NCBI RefSeq assembly: GCF_014268885.2
Contig: NZ_CP077095.1
Span: 5,346,001-5,410,000, forward strand
Direction of reading: 5' to 3'
Source of the DNA: Pseudomonas xantholysinigenes
GTDB taxonomy: Bacteria > Pseudomonadota > Gammaproteobacteria > Pseudomonadales > Pseudomonadaceae
Length of the DNA: 64,000 nucleotides
The notes under the pieces were generated by a model, which did not search any database, was not told the origin of the DNA, and saw only the letters and a program-made list of their open reading frames with translations. Positions 46,724-64,000 of this stretch are shown in pieces (within the stretch, counting starts at the first letter, position 1; each line of letters starts with the position of its first letter). Position numbers and translations under genes: made by a program.

Positions 46724-46824
46724 GAGGCCGCGCCGCTAGATGGCGACAGGATCGCGTACTGATTCGAATTAGGGATGCTTCGGCGACGGCGTGCAGAGGG
46801 CACTGGAGAAGCAGTGCGAGGCCG

Positions 46825-46853
46825 AATGTAACACTTGCTTTTTTCGACGTCTA
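46825..46853 (-). promoter_or_regulatory. Candidate rho promoter
   Basis: On the minus strand TAGACG and TACATT are spaced by 17 bases, each matching four of six positions of the sigma-70 hexamers. It lies about 155 bases before the rho start. Confidence 0.35.
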
Positions 46854-49093: not shown

Positions 49094-49320
49094 GCGCTTT
49101 GCGCCCCTTTCGCGACACAAGGCCGCTCCTACAGGAAACGCGCCGGCCTCAGGGCATGCACCACACCTGTGGGAGCGGGTTTACCCGCGAAGCAAGCAAC
49201 GCGGTGCCTGGCACCGGCTGCGCCGGTGTTCGCGGCTGAAGCCGCTCCCACAGGGACCGCGCCGACCTCGGGGCATGCACTACACCTGTGTCGCGAAAGG
49301 GCCGCAAGGCGGCCCCCATA
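49094..49320. repeat. Cluster of REP units between convergent ppx and ppk
   Basis: In order: a unit TTTCGCGACACAAGGCCGCT at 49108, an inverted unit at 49168-49195 (GTGGGAGCGGGTTTACCCGC), another at 49228-49258, and a final half unit near 49288 with an 8-bp hairpin GGGCCGC...GCGGCCC. The whole 273-bp gap is repeat DNA. Confidence 0.85.
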
Positions 49321-55449: not shown

Positions 55450-55568
55450 TCCCTGTAGGAGCGGCCTTGTGTCGCGATGGGCTGCGTAGCGGCCCCGGCG
55501 ATTTTGCATGATGCCGAGATCCTGGGGCCGCTACGCGCCCCATCGCGACACAAGGCCGCTCCTACAGG
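55450..55568. repeat. Composite REP-spacer-REP unit, copy B (intact)
   Basis: REP arms GTAGGAGCGGCCTTGTGTCG (55456-55475) and its complement (55545-55564) flank a spacer with its own inverted GGCTGCGTAGCGGCCCC / GGGGCCGCTACGCGCCCC segments and the constant middle TTTTGCATGATGCCGAGATC. It is almost identical to copy C at 62733. Confidence 0.9.
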
Positions 55569-60736: not shown

Positions 60737-61480
60737 ATGCGTGCATGGATGGCAATCATTGGCCTGGCCTGCGCCTTCGGTGCGCAGGCGGCCCCCAAGG
60801 TGGCGGTGACCGACCTGGCCTACCAGGCGCAGGTGGAGGAATACATCCACACCGTCAACGCCCAGAGCAGCGGCCAGGCCGGCATGTACCACGCCAGCGG
60901 GCAGTCGAGCTACAGCGAGTACGAGAGCCTCAACAGCTACATCGAGCAGACCGAACTGCGCAAGTTCGGCGGTGACATCAAGGGCGAGCTCCTCAAGACC
61001 GGCATGTTCCAGCTGGTCCAGGGCCGCCCGTATACCGCCGACTCGAAGGAAGACGTGTACGACGTGATCCGCCGTATCAAGAACGGCGCGTTCAAGGGCG
61101 CCGACTACGTGCTGTTCGGCACCCTGTCGGACATCGACTTCCAGCAGGACATCAACTCGCTGGACCACACCGACAGCTACTCGGCGGTGCTGGGCCTGAC
61201 CGTGGTCGCCGACTTCAGCCTGATCAACACCCGCACCTACGAGATCACCTCGGCGTTCACCGCCATGGGTGAAGGGCAGGACACCAAGCTGGTGAAGGGC
61301 CAGGACCGCCGCGTGACGTTGAACCGTCCGCGGGTGGTGCGGGAGGTGTCGAAGGCGCTGGGCGAGGATGTGGCGCAGCAGCTGGCCGAGCAACTGGGTG
61401 GCTCGCTGCCTGGGCAACCAAAAGCGCCGCGTGGTCGCGACAACCTGCCGCCGGATGAACCTGCGCGGGTGCTGAACTAG
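60737..61480 (+). CDS. Secreted LpoB/CsgG-like protein
   Basis: 247-aa protein with signal peptide MRAWMAIIGLACAFGAQA but no lipobox cysteine. The fold pattern (KVAVTDLAYQAQ..., FGGDIKGELLKTGMFQLVQG, GADYVLFGTLSDID, VVADFSLINTRTYEIT) matches the CsgG/LpoB alpha/beta domain. It is probably periplasmic and may work with the LpoB-type lipoprotein encoded three bases upstream. The last residues (about 225-247) are proline- and charge-rich. Confidence 0.8.
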   Translation: MRAWMAIIGLACAFGAQAAPKVAVTDLAYQAQVEEYIHTVNAQSSGQAGMYHASGQSSYSEYESLNSYIEQTELRKFGGDIKGELLKTGMFQLVQGRPYTADSKEDVYDVIRRIKNGAFKGADYVLFGTLSDIDFQQDINSLDHTDSYSAVLGLTVVADFSLINTRTYEITSAFTAMGEGQDTKLVKGQDRRVTLNRPRVVREVSKALGEDVAQQLAEQLGGSLPGQPKAPRGRDNLPPDEPARVLN

Positions 61481-61524
61481 CCCCCCTGAGCCACACGCAA
61501 TCCCTGTAGATACCGTCTTGACCC

Positions 61525-62496
61525 TCACCCCGCAAGAGGGATTTTGGGGTCAAACGGTATCCCCGACTTCACCACCCCGTAAACCAGGTGCAGCAGCTTG
61601 CGCATCGCCGCGCAGACGATCTGTTTGTAAGCTTTGTGCCGGCTGCTCAACCGCTCTGCCAGTTCCTTCACAACAGGGTTATGTCTGATTGAGACAGTGC
61701 CTGACATCCACAAGCCTGCACGCAGCCTTGAGGCGCCTGTACGCGAAATAGTGCTCTTACCTATGAACTCTCCCGATTGCTGCACCACTGGGTTTAAGCC
61801 TGAAAACGCGACAATCGCAGAAGGGCTTTGGTATTTCAGTGGATCGCCCAGTTCGGCGAGCAGCAACGTAGCAGTGGTGTCACCCAAACCATCAATCGAG
61901 GTAATCAGCTCACGTCGCTTGCGCAGGTCTGGATCATCATCGATCGTCTGCTCGATGGCCTTCCTGGTCTTTTCCAGCTCTTCGTTGATGTGCCCGATTA
62001 CGTCTTGAATCGACTGCTGTACCGCATCTAGTGCGACATCCAAACGATTCTGCTCCATCTGGCGCATTTCCTTGAGGTCGTCCAGTCGCCGCACCAGAGC
62101 ACGCAAGCGGCGCTGCGCAGGGGGCTCAGGCTCCCACTGGCGAAGCGAGACAGCCTTTTGTTGGCCATAGGCAGCAATGACTTTGGCGTCAGCCTTATCT
62201 GTTTTGACGCGCCGAAGCTCCACGTCAGCGAATTTCGCAATCACCGCCGGGTTCAGAATGCACACCCGATAACCTTGGTTGTGACAGTGCTCGGCCAGCG
62301 CTTCGTGATAGATGCCTGTAGCCTCCATAACAATCCAGGCGCCTGGTTCAGCATGGCGCTCAAGCCAGTCGCTAAACTGCCTGAACCCTCCAGGATCATT
62401 GGACAGCTTGGCTTTGGTGCGCATCTTGCCATTGGGGAGCGGGATGGCAATGTCGAAAGATTTTTTGGCGACATCAACGCCAACAAAGACGGACAT
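61525..62496 (-). CDS. IS110-family transposase (bridge-RNA-guided recombinase type)
   Basis: 323-aa recombinase. The RuvC-like DEDD residues are D8 (FVGVDVAKK), E58 (VMEATG), D100 and D103 (VKTDKADAKV). A coiled-coil-rich middle (about 130-190) follows. The C-terminal transposase-20 domain has ITSIDGLGDTTATLLLAELGD and FSGLNPVVQQSGEFIGKSTISRTGASRLR; the candidate catalytic serine is S241 in QQSGEF. The start at 62496 has AAGGAGGAG upstream. It is full length with no frameshift, so the element may be active. The stop lies 15 bases from the element end. Confidence 0.95.
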   Translation of the reverse strand: MSVFVGVDVAKKSFDIAIPLPNGKMRTKAKLSNDPGGFRQFSDWLERHAEPGAWIVMEATGIYHEALAEHCHNQGYRVCILNPAVIAKFADVELRRVKTDKADAKVIAAYGQQKAVSLRQWEPEPPAQRRLRALVRRLDDLKEMRQMEQNRLDVALDAVQQSIQDVIGHINEELEKTRKAIEQTIDDDPDLRKRRELITSIDGLGDTTATLLLAELGDPLKYQSPSAIVAFSGLNPVVQQSGEFIGKSTISRTGASRLRAGLWMSGTVSIRHNPVVKELAERLSSRHKAYKQIVCAAMRKLLHLVYGVVKSGIPFDPKIPLAG

Positions 62497-62539
62497 GATC
62501 TCCTCCTTCAAACTACGAAAGTCGATCACCCTACACTCA

Positions 62540-62730
62540 GTTCAACCTTGTTAATGCGTGCTCACGCCGGGGGCGGGCACTAGATACCGTTCGAACTCGT
62601 CGAGTGGGGTTGGAAGACCAGAGCGTTATCTACAGTGCGGGCTTGATGCCCTTGGAGCGGCTCTGCTTCAAGGCCTTCCCTCGATGATCAGTCGAGAACT
62701 TTCGCCTCTAGGGAGGCGAAAGTCGAGATA
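62540..62730 (-). ncRNA. Candidate bridge RNA of the IS110 element
   Basis: Read on the minus strand, a 5' hairpin with an 11-bp stem (62698-62723) is followed by two larger stem-loops. The first (62613-62669) has a basal CAGAG/CTCTG stem and an apical GGGC/GCCC hairpin. Its internal loop carries CCGCTCC (62654-62660), identical to the left target, and CTGTAG (62630-62635), complementary to the right target. The second (62540-62596) has a basal GTTCGA/TTGAAC stem and an apical hairpin (62558-62580). Its loop carries ACGGTATCT (62582-62590), identical to the element's right end, and ACAAG (62547-62551), complementary to its left end. RNA ends are not determined. Confidence 0.72.
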
Positions 62731-62732
62731 CA

Positions 62733-62846
62733 AGGAGCGGCCTTGTGCCGCTATGGGCTGCGTAGCGGCTCCGGCAATTTTGCATGATGCCGAGATCCTG
62801 GGGCCGCTACGCGCCCCATCGCGGCACAAGGCCGCTCCTACAGGGG
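62733..62846. repeat. Composite REP-spacer-REP unit, copy C (interrupted by the IS)
   Basis: Nearly identical to copy B at 55450 in order and sequence, including TTTTGCATGATGCCGAGATC. Its left REP arm lacks the outer CCCTGT, which lies on the far side of the IS at 61502-61507. Confidence 0.9.
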
Positions 62847-62862
62847 TCTGTATTCGCAGCCA

Positions 62863-64000
62863 TCAAGGCCTGGCGCTGTTCTTCCAGCCGCCCCCCAAGG
62901 CCAGGAACACCCCGATCTGCCCCATCGCCACCTGGCTGTTGGCCGCCGCCAGTTGCGCGCGGACATCGGTGTAGGTACGGGTCGCCTGCAAGTCCGCCAG
63001 GAACGACTCGCGCCCGACCTGGTAGCGCAGGTGGGTCTGGTCCGCCGACTCTTTCGCCGAACGCTCGGCATCGGCCAGCGCATCACGCCGGTCCAGCAGC
63101 GCGCTGTACTGCGCCAGGCGGGTCTGGGTCTCGCGAATGGCGTTGAGCACCACCCCGTCGAAATGCGCCAGCGCCGCCTGGGTCGAGGCCTCGGCCATGC
63201 GAATGCGCGCGCGGGTGCCGTTGGTGGGGATGTTCCAGCTGATCTGCGGGCCGAAGCCCCAGCGATTGGTCGAAGGATCGCCAAGATTCTTGGCCAGGCC
63301 AATGGTGCCGATCTGCGCGCCGATGCTGATATCCGGATACAACGCGCCAGTGGCTACGCCGATGGTCGCGGTGGCGGCGGCCAGCTGGCGTTCGGCCTGG
63401 CGCACATCAGGGCGGCGCTTGAGCAGCGCGGCGCCGTCACCGATCGGGATCAGCTGCGCCAATTGTGGCAGCTCGGCGCAGTCGGCGGTGCCCGCCGGCA
63501 GTTGCTCGACCGGCTTGGCCAGCAGCGCGGCCAAGGTATACAAGCCGGCCTCGCGCTCTGCCTTGAAGCGCGGCAGCTCGGCACGCAGCGACTTGAACTG
63601 GGTCTGCGAACGGGTCACCTGGGTCTCGTCGCCACGGCCGGCGTCGCGCAGGCGTTGGGTCAGCTGCACGCTCTGCTGCTGCAAGTCCAGCGACTCATGG
63701 GCGATATGGTATTCCTCGTTGGCCGAGCATACCTGGGTATAGGCCTTGACCACGTCGGCCACCAGGGTGATGCGTGCGGTGTCGGCCGCGGCCTGCACCG
63801 CGTCGGCGTTGGCCTTGGCGGCCTCGGTGCCACGCTTGAAAGTGCCCCACAGGTCGAACTGGTAGCTGGCGCTGACAATGGCCTCACCGATGTTGCCCAC
63901 CGGCACCTTCTCTGGCAGCAGGAAGGCTTCGCCGGACTCCTGCAGGCGCTGGGCGGCCAGCTTGACGCCACCGTTGAAGCCGCCTTGCGACTCGGCCACT
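62863..64000 (-). CDS. Outer-membrane efflux channel, TolC/NodT family (5' part beyond the window)
   Basis: The last 378 codons of an RND-type outer-membrane factor; the N-terminus lies past the right edge. Repeated helical segments are typical: YQFDLWGTFKRGTEAAKANADAVQAAADT, RLRDAGRGDETQVTRSQTQF, then the second-half counterpart LLKRRPDVRQAERQLAAATATIGVATGALYPDISIGAQIG. The tail ends ALGGGWKNSARP. The family forms the outer-membrane exit of multidrug or solvent pumps; the matching inner-membrane and adaptor genes would lie to the right. Confidence 0.9.
   Translation of the reverse strand, partial: VAESQGGFNGGVKLAAQRLQESGEAFLLPEKVPVGNIGEAIVSASYQFDLWGTFKRGTEAAKANADAVQAAADTARITLVADVVKAYTQVCSANEEYHIAHESLDLQQQSVQLTQRLRDAGRGDETQVTRSQTQFKSLRAELPRFKAEREAGLYTLAALLAKPVEQLPAGTADCAELPQLAQLIPIGDGAALLKRRPDVRQAERQLAAATATIGVATGALYPDISIGAQIGTIGLAKNLGDPSTNRWGFGPQISWNIPTNGTRARIRMAEASTQAALAHFDGVVLNAIRETQTRLAQYSALLDRRDALADAERSAKESADQTHLRYQVGRESFLADLQATRTYTDVRAQLAAANSQVAMGQIGVFLALGGGWKNSARP

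Follow-up and report, generated by a model that had tools for sequence, protein, structure and literature searches.

An IS110 insertion sequence of Pseudomonas xantholysinigenes with a predicted bridge RNA whose left target guide varies with the insertion site among relatives

The element and its copies in the genome

The window analysed here, a 64,000-nucleotide stretch of the Pseudomonas xantholysinigenes genome (contig NZ_CP077095.1), contains a complete 1,227-bp IS110 element on the minus strand at 61508-62734, with both CT cores counted in its length (Table 1). The genome (5.61 Mb, one contig) carries 22 near-identical copies, every one 1,227 bp long with both CT cores, that fall into six sequence variants, 12 of the copies being identical. 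The noncoding region at the left end is the same in all 22 copies. This region extends for 238 nt from the left end to the ATG of the recombinase gene, an arrangement of the IS110 rather than the IS1111 type, and only 15 nt separate the end of the gene from the right core.

The mechanical ORF of the recombinase begins earlier than the gene in Table 1, at a GTG codon at position 62529. The likely start is the ATG, from which the protein has the length of most of its relatives among the best 120 of the 640 listed. The recombinase matches two Pfam families, PF01548 (DEDD_Tnp_IS110) and PF02371 (Transposase_20), and has two sequence relatives in the PDB, the transposases of ISCro4 (E 5.7e-60) and IS621 (E 2.7e-57). 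The DEDD residues (D8, E58, D100 and D103) and the serine of the SG motif (S241) were assigned by eye, as was the surrounding G--P----SG motif, which reads GLNPVVQQSG. As to a name for the element, the protein names of relatives gave merely 'IS110 family transposase' or 'transposase', and plasmid records were without one.

Table 1. Features of the IS110 element and of its predicted bridge RNA, in window coordinates
Feature	Position	Strand	Basis
IS110 element	61508..62734	-	Ends shared by all 22 copies in the genome
CT cores	62733-62734 and 61508-61509	-	Included in the element
Recombinase gene, 323 aa	61525..62496	-	ATG at 62496 after GGAGGAG
Left target GCCGCTC in REP	62735..62741	-	Comparison of copies in the genome
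Right target ACAGG	61503..61507	-	Comparison of copies in the genome
5' hairpin of RNA	62697..62724	-	Folds; helix 1, 5 of 11 pairs changed on both sides
Second 5' hairpin	62680..62696	-	Folds; helix 2
Target-binding loop, basal stem and apical hairpin (62639-62651)	62612..62679	-	Folds, helices 3-5; covariance model
Left target guide GCCGCTCC (GCCGCTC plus first core base C)	62654..62661	-	Equals left target; covaries
Right target guide CTGTAG (GTAG conserved)	62630..62635	-	Complement of CT-ACAG
Probable handshake guide AUA	62627..62629	-	Complementary to donor TAT beside the core
Donor-binding loop, basal stem and apical hairpin (62558-62580)	62534..62606	-	Helices 6-8; covariance model
Left donor guide ACGGTATCT	62582..62590	-	Equals right end of element with core (61508-61516)
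Right donor guide ACAAG (62547-62551) plus handshake G	62546..62551	-	Complementary to CTTGT of the left end and to target base 7

Target sites and REP repeats

All 22 copies have AAGGCCGCTC to the left of the core and AC to its right, creating the arrangement AAGGCCGCTC-CT-AC, and in 19 of them the next two bases are AG. The common left flanks, TTCGCGACGCAAGGCCGCTC and TTCGCGACACAAGGCCGCTC, taken together with CT-ACA, are the reverse complements of two REPs of P. putida W619, for which TGTAGGAGCGGCCTTGcGTCGCGAA and its t variant are listed in the excerpt of PMC2817692. Thus, the CT core corresponds to the AG of the GTAG tag of the REP. In six copies (L023, L024 and L027-L030) the left flank reads ACGCCTCGGCAAGGCCGCTC instead, and in L019 it is different again, unlike either the common flanks or ACGCCTCGGCAAGGCCGCTC. 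These copies nevertheless keep the part matched by the guide, and diverge upstream of CAAGGCCGCTC or GGCAAGGCCGCTC. Since the left flanks vary in this way, what is common to all 22 copies is a short linear stretch covered by the guide, plus about three bases.

The targets in the genome are all REP-like, and the element sits in the tagged end of the REP. The 11-mer target GCCGCTCCTAC has 394 further exact sites in the genome, as compared with 68 for a reversed control; with 22 of 416 exact sites carrying the element, about 5% are occupied. Free exact copies of the 11-mer also occur in the window, at 49122, 55555 and 62831 on the plus strand and at 55455 on the minus strand, that at 62831 lying about 100 bases from the element.

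Organisation of the predicted bridge RNA

An earlier note, made from the letters of the window, had placed two guide-bearing loops in the 238 bases upstream of the transposase. The loops are located there, on the minus strand, and all four guide strings (GCCGCTCC, CTGTAG, ACGGTATCT and ACAAG) were found at the positions it gave. The order along the minus strand is two 5' hairpins, the target loop and the donor loop; the two hairpins and the handshake guide had escaped the earlier note, and both are present. In the case of the left target guide, the proposed position was right and the proposed length was not, as the match covers 8 nt (GCCGCTC and the first core base), one more than claimed. The donor guides correspond to the ends of the element, as had been proposed. 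The right target guide, read as six nucleotides, is present as a string, although relatives bear out only its GTAG (core plus AC). A basal stem and an apical hairpin, described for each loop, are seen in both, with the basal helix of the donor loop (helix 7) being weaker at 76.7% paired. The broader claim, that the code can be read from a single copy, holds for the left target guide and the donor guides, and fails for the right target guide, which had been read overlong.

The four guide strings never occurred together in order when the noncoding region, minus its left 12 bases, was randomised 200,000 times with a first-order Markov model. Taken singly, GCCGCTCC, CTGTAG, ACGGTATCT and ACAAG were met with frequencies of 0.8%, 4.6%, 0.03% and 17%, respectively, so that the short strings CTGTAG and ACAAG, being frequent by chance, carry little weight alone.

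Conservation of the RNA structure

When the noncoding region is folded as a single sequence, its fold is equalled by one in 200 shuffles (z -2.54). RNAalifold, applied to 19 aligned noncoding regions, predicted 43 pairs, 18 of them changed on both sides. In this fold the 5' end is paired with the right donor guide and the donor basal stem is left open, a pairing that is possible for any RNA beginning CTTGT. Substitution of the donor stem from the single-sequence fold gives a structure of 51 pairs, in which 94.0% of cells are paired as against 87.2% in shuffles. Changes on both sides are found at 20 of these pairs (11.1 in shuffles), and the covariation score is 0.258 (0.128 in shuffles), with none of 500 shuffles as high by either measure. 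The number of further pair types, 42 as compared with 38.3, is less striking, having been reached by 25 of the 500 shuffles.

The proposed RNA was also recovered by a covariance model of 18 relatives (one row, W15Oct28, being a close relative) from which the P. xantholysinigenes element had been left out. The model gave 156.9 bits (rough E 6.5e-37) at 62531-62679, a single match with nothing else in the 64-kb window up to E 10, and shared ancestry remains inside this score as it does inside the shuffle statistics. No Rfam family matches the noncoding region at gathering cut-offs. Elsewhere in the window, Rfam matches are to the Pseudomonas sRNA P1 (7624-7803, plus strand) and the Pseudomon-Rho RNA (46727-46826, minus strand).

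Covariation of guide and target among relatives

The 22 copies in the genome are uninformative for covariation, because they combine an identical noncoding region with a single common target. Relatives were drawn from two sources, namely 15 of 198 other Pseudomonas genomes (with up to 10 candidates scored per genome) and seven of nine loci of three named species, and 64 relative copies with a left end were compared, a truncated one (L092) having been dropped.

As the earlier note had anticipated, loop 1 varies with the target. In the close clade, the 7-nt left guide equals the left target in all 12 distinct pairs (84 of 84 positions), whereas shuffled pairings of guides and targets agree at a mean of 41.5 of 84 positions and, the true pairing apart, at 73 in the best of 200,000 shuffles. 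The lineages share ancestry, and the shuffle result is thus no strict probability, yet wherever a position has changed and guide and target still agree, both have changed together. The guides are GCCGCTC, CCAGCTC, CGCGCTC, ACCCAGC, CCGGCTC, GCCCACC, GCAGCTC, GTCCGCC, GCAGCGG, ACCCACC, GTACGCC and ACAGCTG; eleven pairs come from one comparison of guides and targets, and the twelfth (G101) was read from its 12-base flank.

Among the 64 relative copies, 60 match at seven of seven left positions, and the remaining four are all in the distant genome G012 (39% identity, guide ATCCACC), where four of eight copies match in full, three have U opposite G, and one has this together with A opposite C. In addition, the covariance model matches 27 of 398 genomes, including 11 that had not come up before. 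From 10 of these, 11 loci were read; nine match at seven of seven positions, and in two a single G of the guide faces a T in the DNA. This is a weak independent test, given that several of these loci share guides with, or look to be of the same species as, earlier ones.

Two further loci are of note in their own right. L078 (genome G041) has two relative copies in the same orientation, separated by 1,332 bp and each with a GTCCGCC-CT-ACG target of its own. In L123 (genome G082), a bridge-RNA-like match of 73.8 bits at 1501-1643 on the minus strand lies in 2,855 bp without a recognisable IS110 gene and without a CTTGTAT end, next to ORFs that look by eye like nuoA and nuoB; the match is, to judge from the sequence, a decayed or orphan copy.

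On the right side of the target, AC follows the core in 61 of 64 relative copies, the exceptions being one AT, one GC and one that is cut off. It is matched by the guide GTAG (ATAG in G079), AC itself hardly varying, and the guide fails to predict the third right-target base in G018, G060, G181, G163, G128 and G034. The left guide base opposite the core T is an A in the P. xantholysinigenes element (a mismatch), a G in W15Oct28, and a T in the other 17 of 19 rows. All 19 rows have AT after the right target guide (TAG), complementary to the donor bases beside the core, and 18 have G after the right donor guide; according to the excerpt of PMC11208158, the handshake positions of IS621 are the bases after the right target guide and the right donor guide. 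Target base 7 is G in two lineages, and the donor handshake base follows in G101 (C) and does not in G086. The element ends, CAAGACGGTAT-CT and CT-TGTATC, are near constant among relatives. So too is the donor loop, which the earlier note had expected to stay fixed, with one matched change in G181, where the right end reads ACGATATCT and the donor guide likewise.

Interpretation and alternative explanations

Taken together, the anatomy, ends and target of the element, the correspondence of guides with target and donor, the covariation of the structure and the homology of the recombinase are what we observe, and the locus is very probably an IS110 insertion sequence with a gene for a DEDD/serine recombinase and, in the left end ahead of that gene, the template of a bridge RNA. 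By analogy with IS621, this RNA would be transcribed and the element would pass through a circle intermediate. Loop 1 would pair with the chromosomal target, its left guide with the bottom strand and its right guide with the top strand across CT, and loop 2 with the joined ends of the element. The recombinase would hold both DNAs and, with strand pairing and catalysis as in IS621, strands would be exchanged at CT. Such an exchange would place the element within the GTAG tag of a P. putida-type REP, at its AG.

It is very unlikely that the region serves chiefly as a structured 5' leader for the transposase mRNA, under antisense regulation as in ISPpu9, with the guide matches arising as by-products. 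The leader of ISPpu9, a P. putida IS110 that likewise targets REPs, is 244 nt in length, close to the 238 nt between left end and ATG here, and ISPpu9 also has an antisense RNA (Asr9) and a further RNA, Ssr9, lying downstream (PMC8450116, in excerpt). Nothing in the function of a leader, however, calls for a 7-mer whose letters follow the insertion site, as they do in 12 of 12 pairs. The promoter search argues against it as well, as it does against the bridge RNA reading itself, since no convincing sigma-70-like promoter, or promoter-like site, was found on either strand of 61400-63000. The joined ends do present TTG, 17 bases and TATCTT in nearly all lineages, with a match of 7/12 in the P. 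xantholysinigenes element (reached by 38% of shuffles) and of 7-8 of 12 across lineages (reached by 5-53%). This score is ordinary, and the TTGC of the match falls in codons of the end of the gene, so that a junction promoter is at most a candidate. Roles as leader and as bridge RNA could also coexist.

Least probable of all is that the recombinase protein itself recognises the REP, by sequence or hairpin, and that the matches are binding sites repeated in the element: although the targets in the genome are all REP-like, REP targeting was described before bridge RNAs (PMC1525189, in excerpt), and in many relatives the target forms the foot of a palindrome (with 9-nt arms for six of eight G041 copies and 8-nt arms for six of seven G112 copies), an exact upstream stem arm of at least 5 nt is missing in several copies, the P. 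xantholysinigenes copies with other left flanks keep the guide-matched part, recombinases with 53-63% identity to the present one go to other 7-mers, each paired with a matching guide, and the six imperfect matches, five purely of G:T or U:G type and one also with A:C, suit RNA pairing.

Comparison with known systems

The bridge RNA reading places the element beside several systems, described here from excerpts of the cited articles. The element is like IS621 of E. coli in its recombinase family, in an RNA upstream of the gene and in two loops that each have left and right guides, as well as in the CT core, the right target AC, the REP target and the handshake bases (PMC11208160, PMC11208158). 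It is unlike IS621 in the REP and left guide used, in a left guide that covers 8 nt with a mismatch at the core T, and in being known from sequence. The mechanism has been published for IS621, as have REP targeting by IS621 and the concordance of guides and targets across IS110 orthologues, and a figure legend records that the loops, target and donor of ISPpu10 (P. putida KT2440) were inspected and a bridge RNA predicted (PMC11208160). Thus, the kind of system is known.

Both ISPpu9 and ISPpu10 target REPs, ISPpu10 inserting between REP bases 9 and 10 (PMC1525189). Compared by description only, the present element resembles ISPpu10, a REP-targeting IS110 of P. putida that gives 2-bp repeats (PMC1525189). 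Its likeness to ISPpu9, also by description, lies in the REP target, the AG (= CT) repeat and a long leader of similar length (PMC8450116). Unlike the case of ISPpu9 with Asr9 and Ssr9, the P. xantholysinigenes genome has no separate RNA copies, the 22 RNA matches being the 22 elements (all 32 first-look candidates were scored). The Ssr9 RNA sits behind a 'BA' box, and non-REP sites harbour orphan ssr9 copies that have A and B boxes (PMC8450116). The 'BA' box looks like the joined ends of an element, and the orphan copies may be mini-elements in which loop 1 is set for a different target.

A noncoding RNA that chooses the target is likewise described as the seekRNA of ISEc21 and of IS1111 elements. 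In the IS110 type it lies upstream of the gene, and natural reprogramming between relatives has been described; IS1111 members differ in having the RNA downstream and subterminal inverted repeats (PMC11187229). In a literature search with partial coverage of subscription papers and preprints, we recognised no paper that connects the guides of bridge RNAs with the GTAG tag of REPs.

A possible clade of guide settings in Pseudomonas

The proposal that every guide corresponds to whichever REP is most abundant in its host is only partly borne out by exact 11-mer counts, made for seven of the 12 settings in 16 genomes each. The target of the P. xantholysinigenes element is most frequent at home, with 394 sites as compared with 129 in the next genome (G078). 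The same is true of the G079 setting (103 at home, 53 in the next genome, G128) and of the GCAGCTC group (790 in G128, 323 in G011, 57 in G034 and 42 in G100). The G018 setting has 21 sites at home versus 553 in G181, that of G041 two free sites at home versus 29 in G078, and that of G112 four at home versus 43 in G078; the G078 setting has 18 at home and 14 in G060. These counts support a clade-wide view of the elements, of one scaffold and a near-fixed donor code with a guide that tracks tagged repeats, for the P. xantholysinigenes element, G079 and the GCAGCTC group, and less so for G018, G041 and G112. That view may be new, and the natural reprogramming of the left guide is unusually clean.

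What these elements offer is a bridge RNA that is readable from raw sequence, with a code that can be checked against natural relatives, and a destination that has been shown, namely the tagged end of a REP. The 12 left-guide settings, with nearly the same donor code, allow guide length, tolerance of G:U, core mismatch and handshake pairing to be compared within Pseudomonas. For the genus as a whole, the balance is even on whether the elements form a single clade, in which one recombinase scaffold with near-fixed donor ends has had its left guide rewritten by lineage after REP-type repeats, always around CT-AC, the complement of the GTAG tag. Such a clade would amount to a library, assembled in nature, of 13 or more guide settings for one kind of programmable recombinase, tied to the hallmark tag of RAYT-associated repeats.
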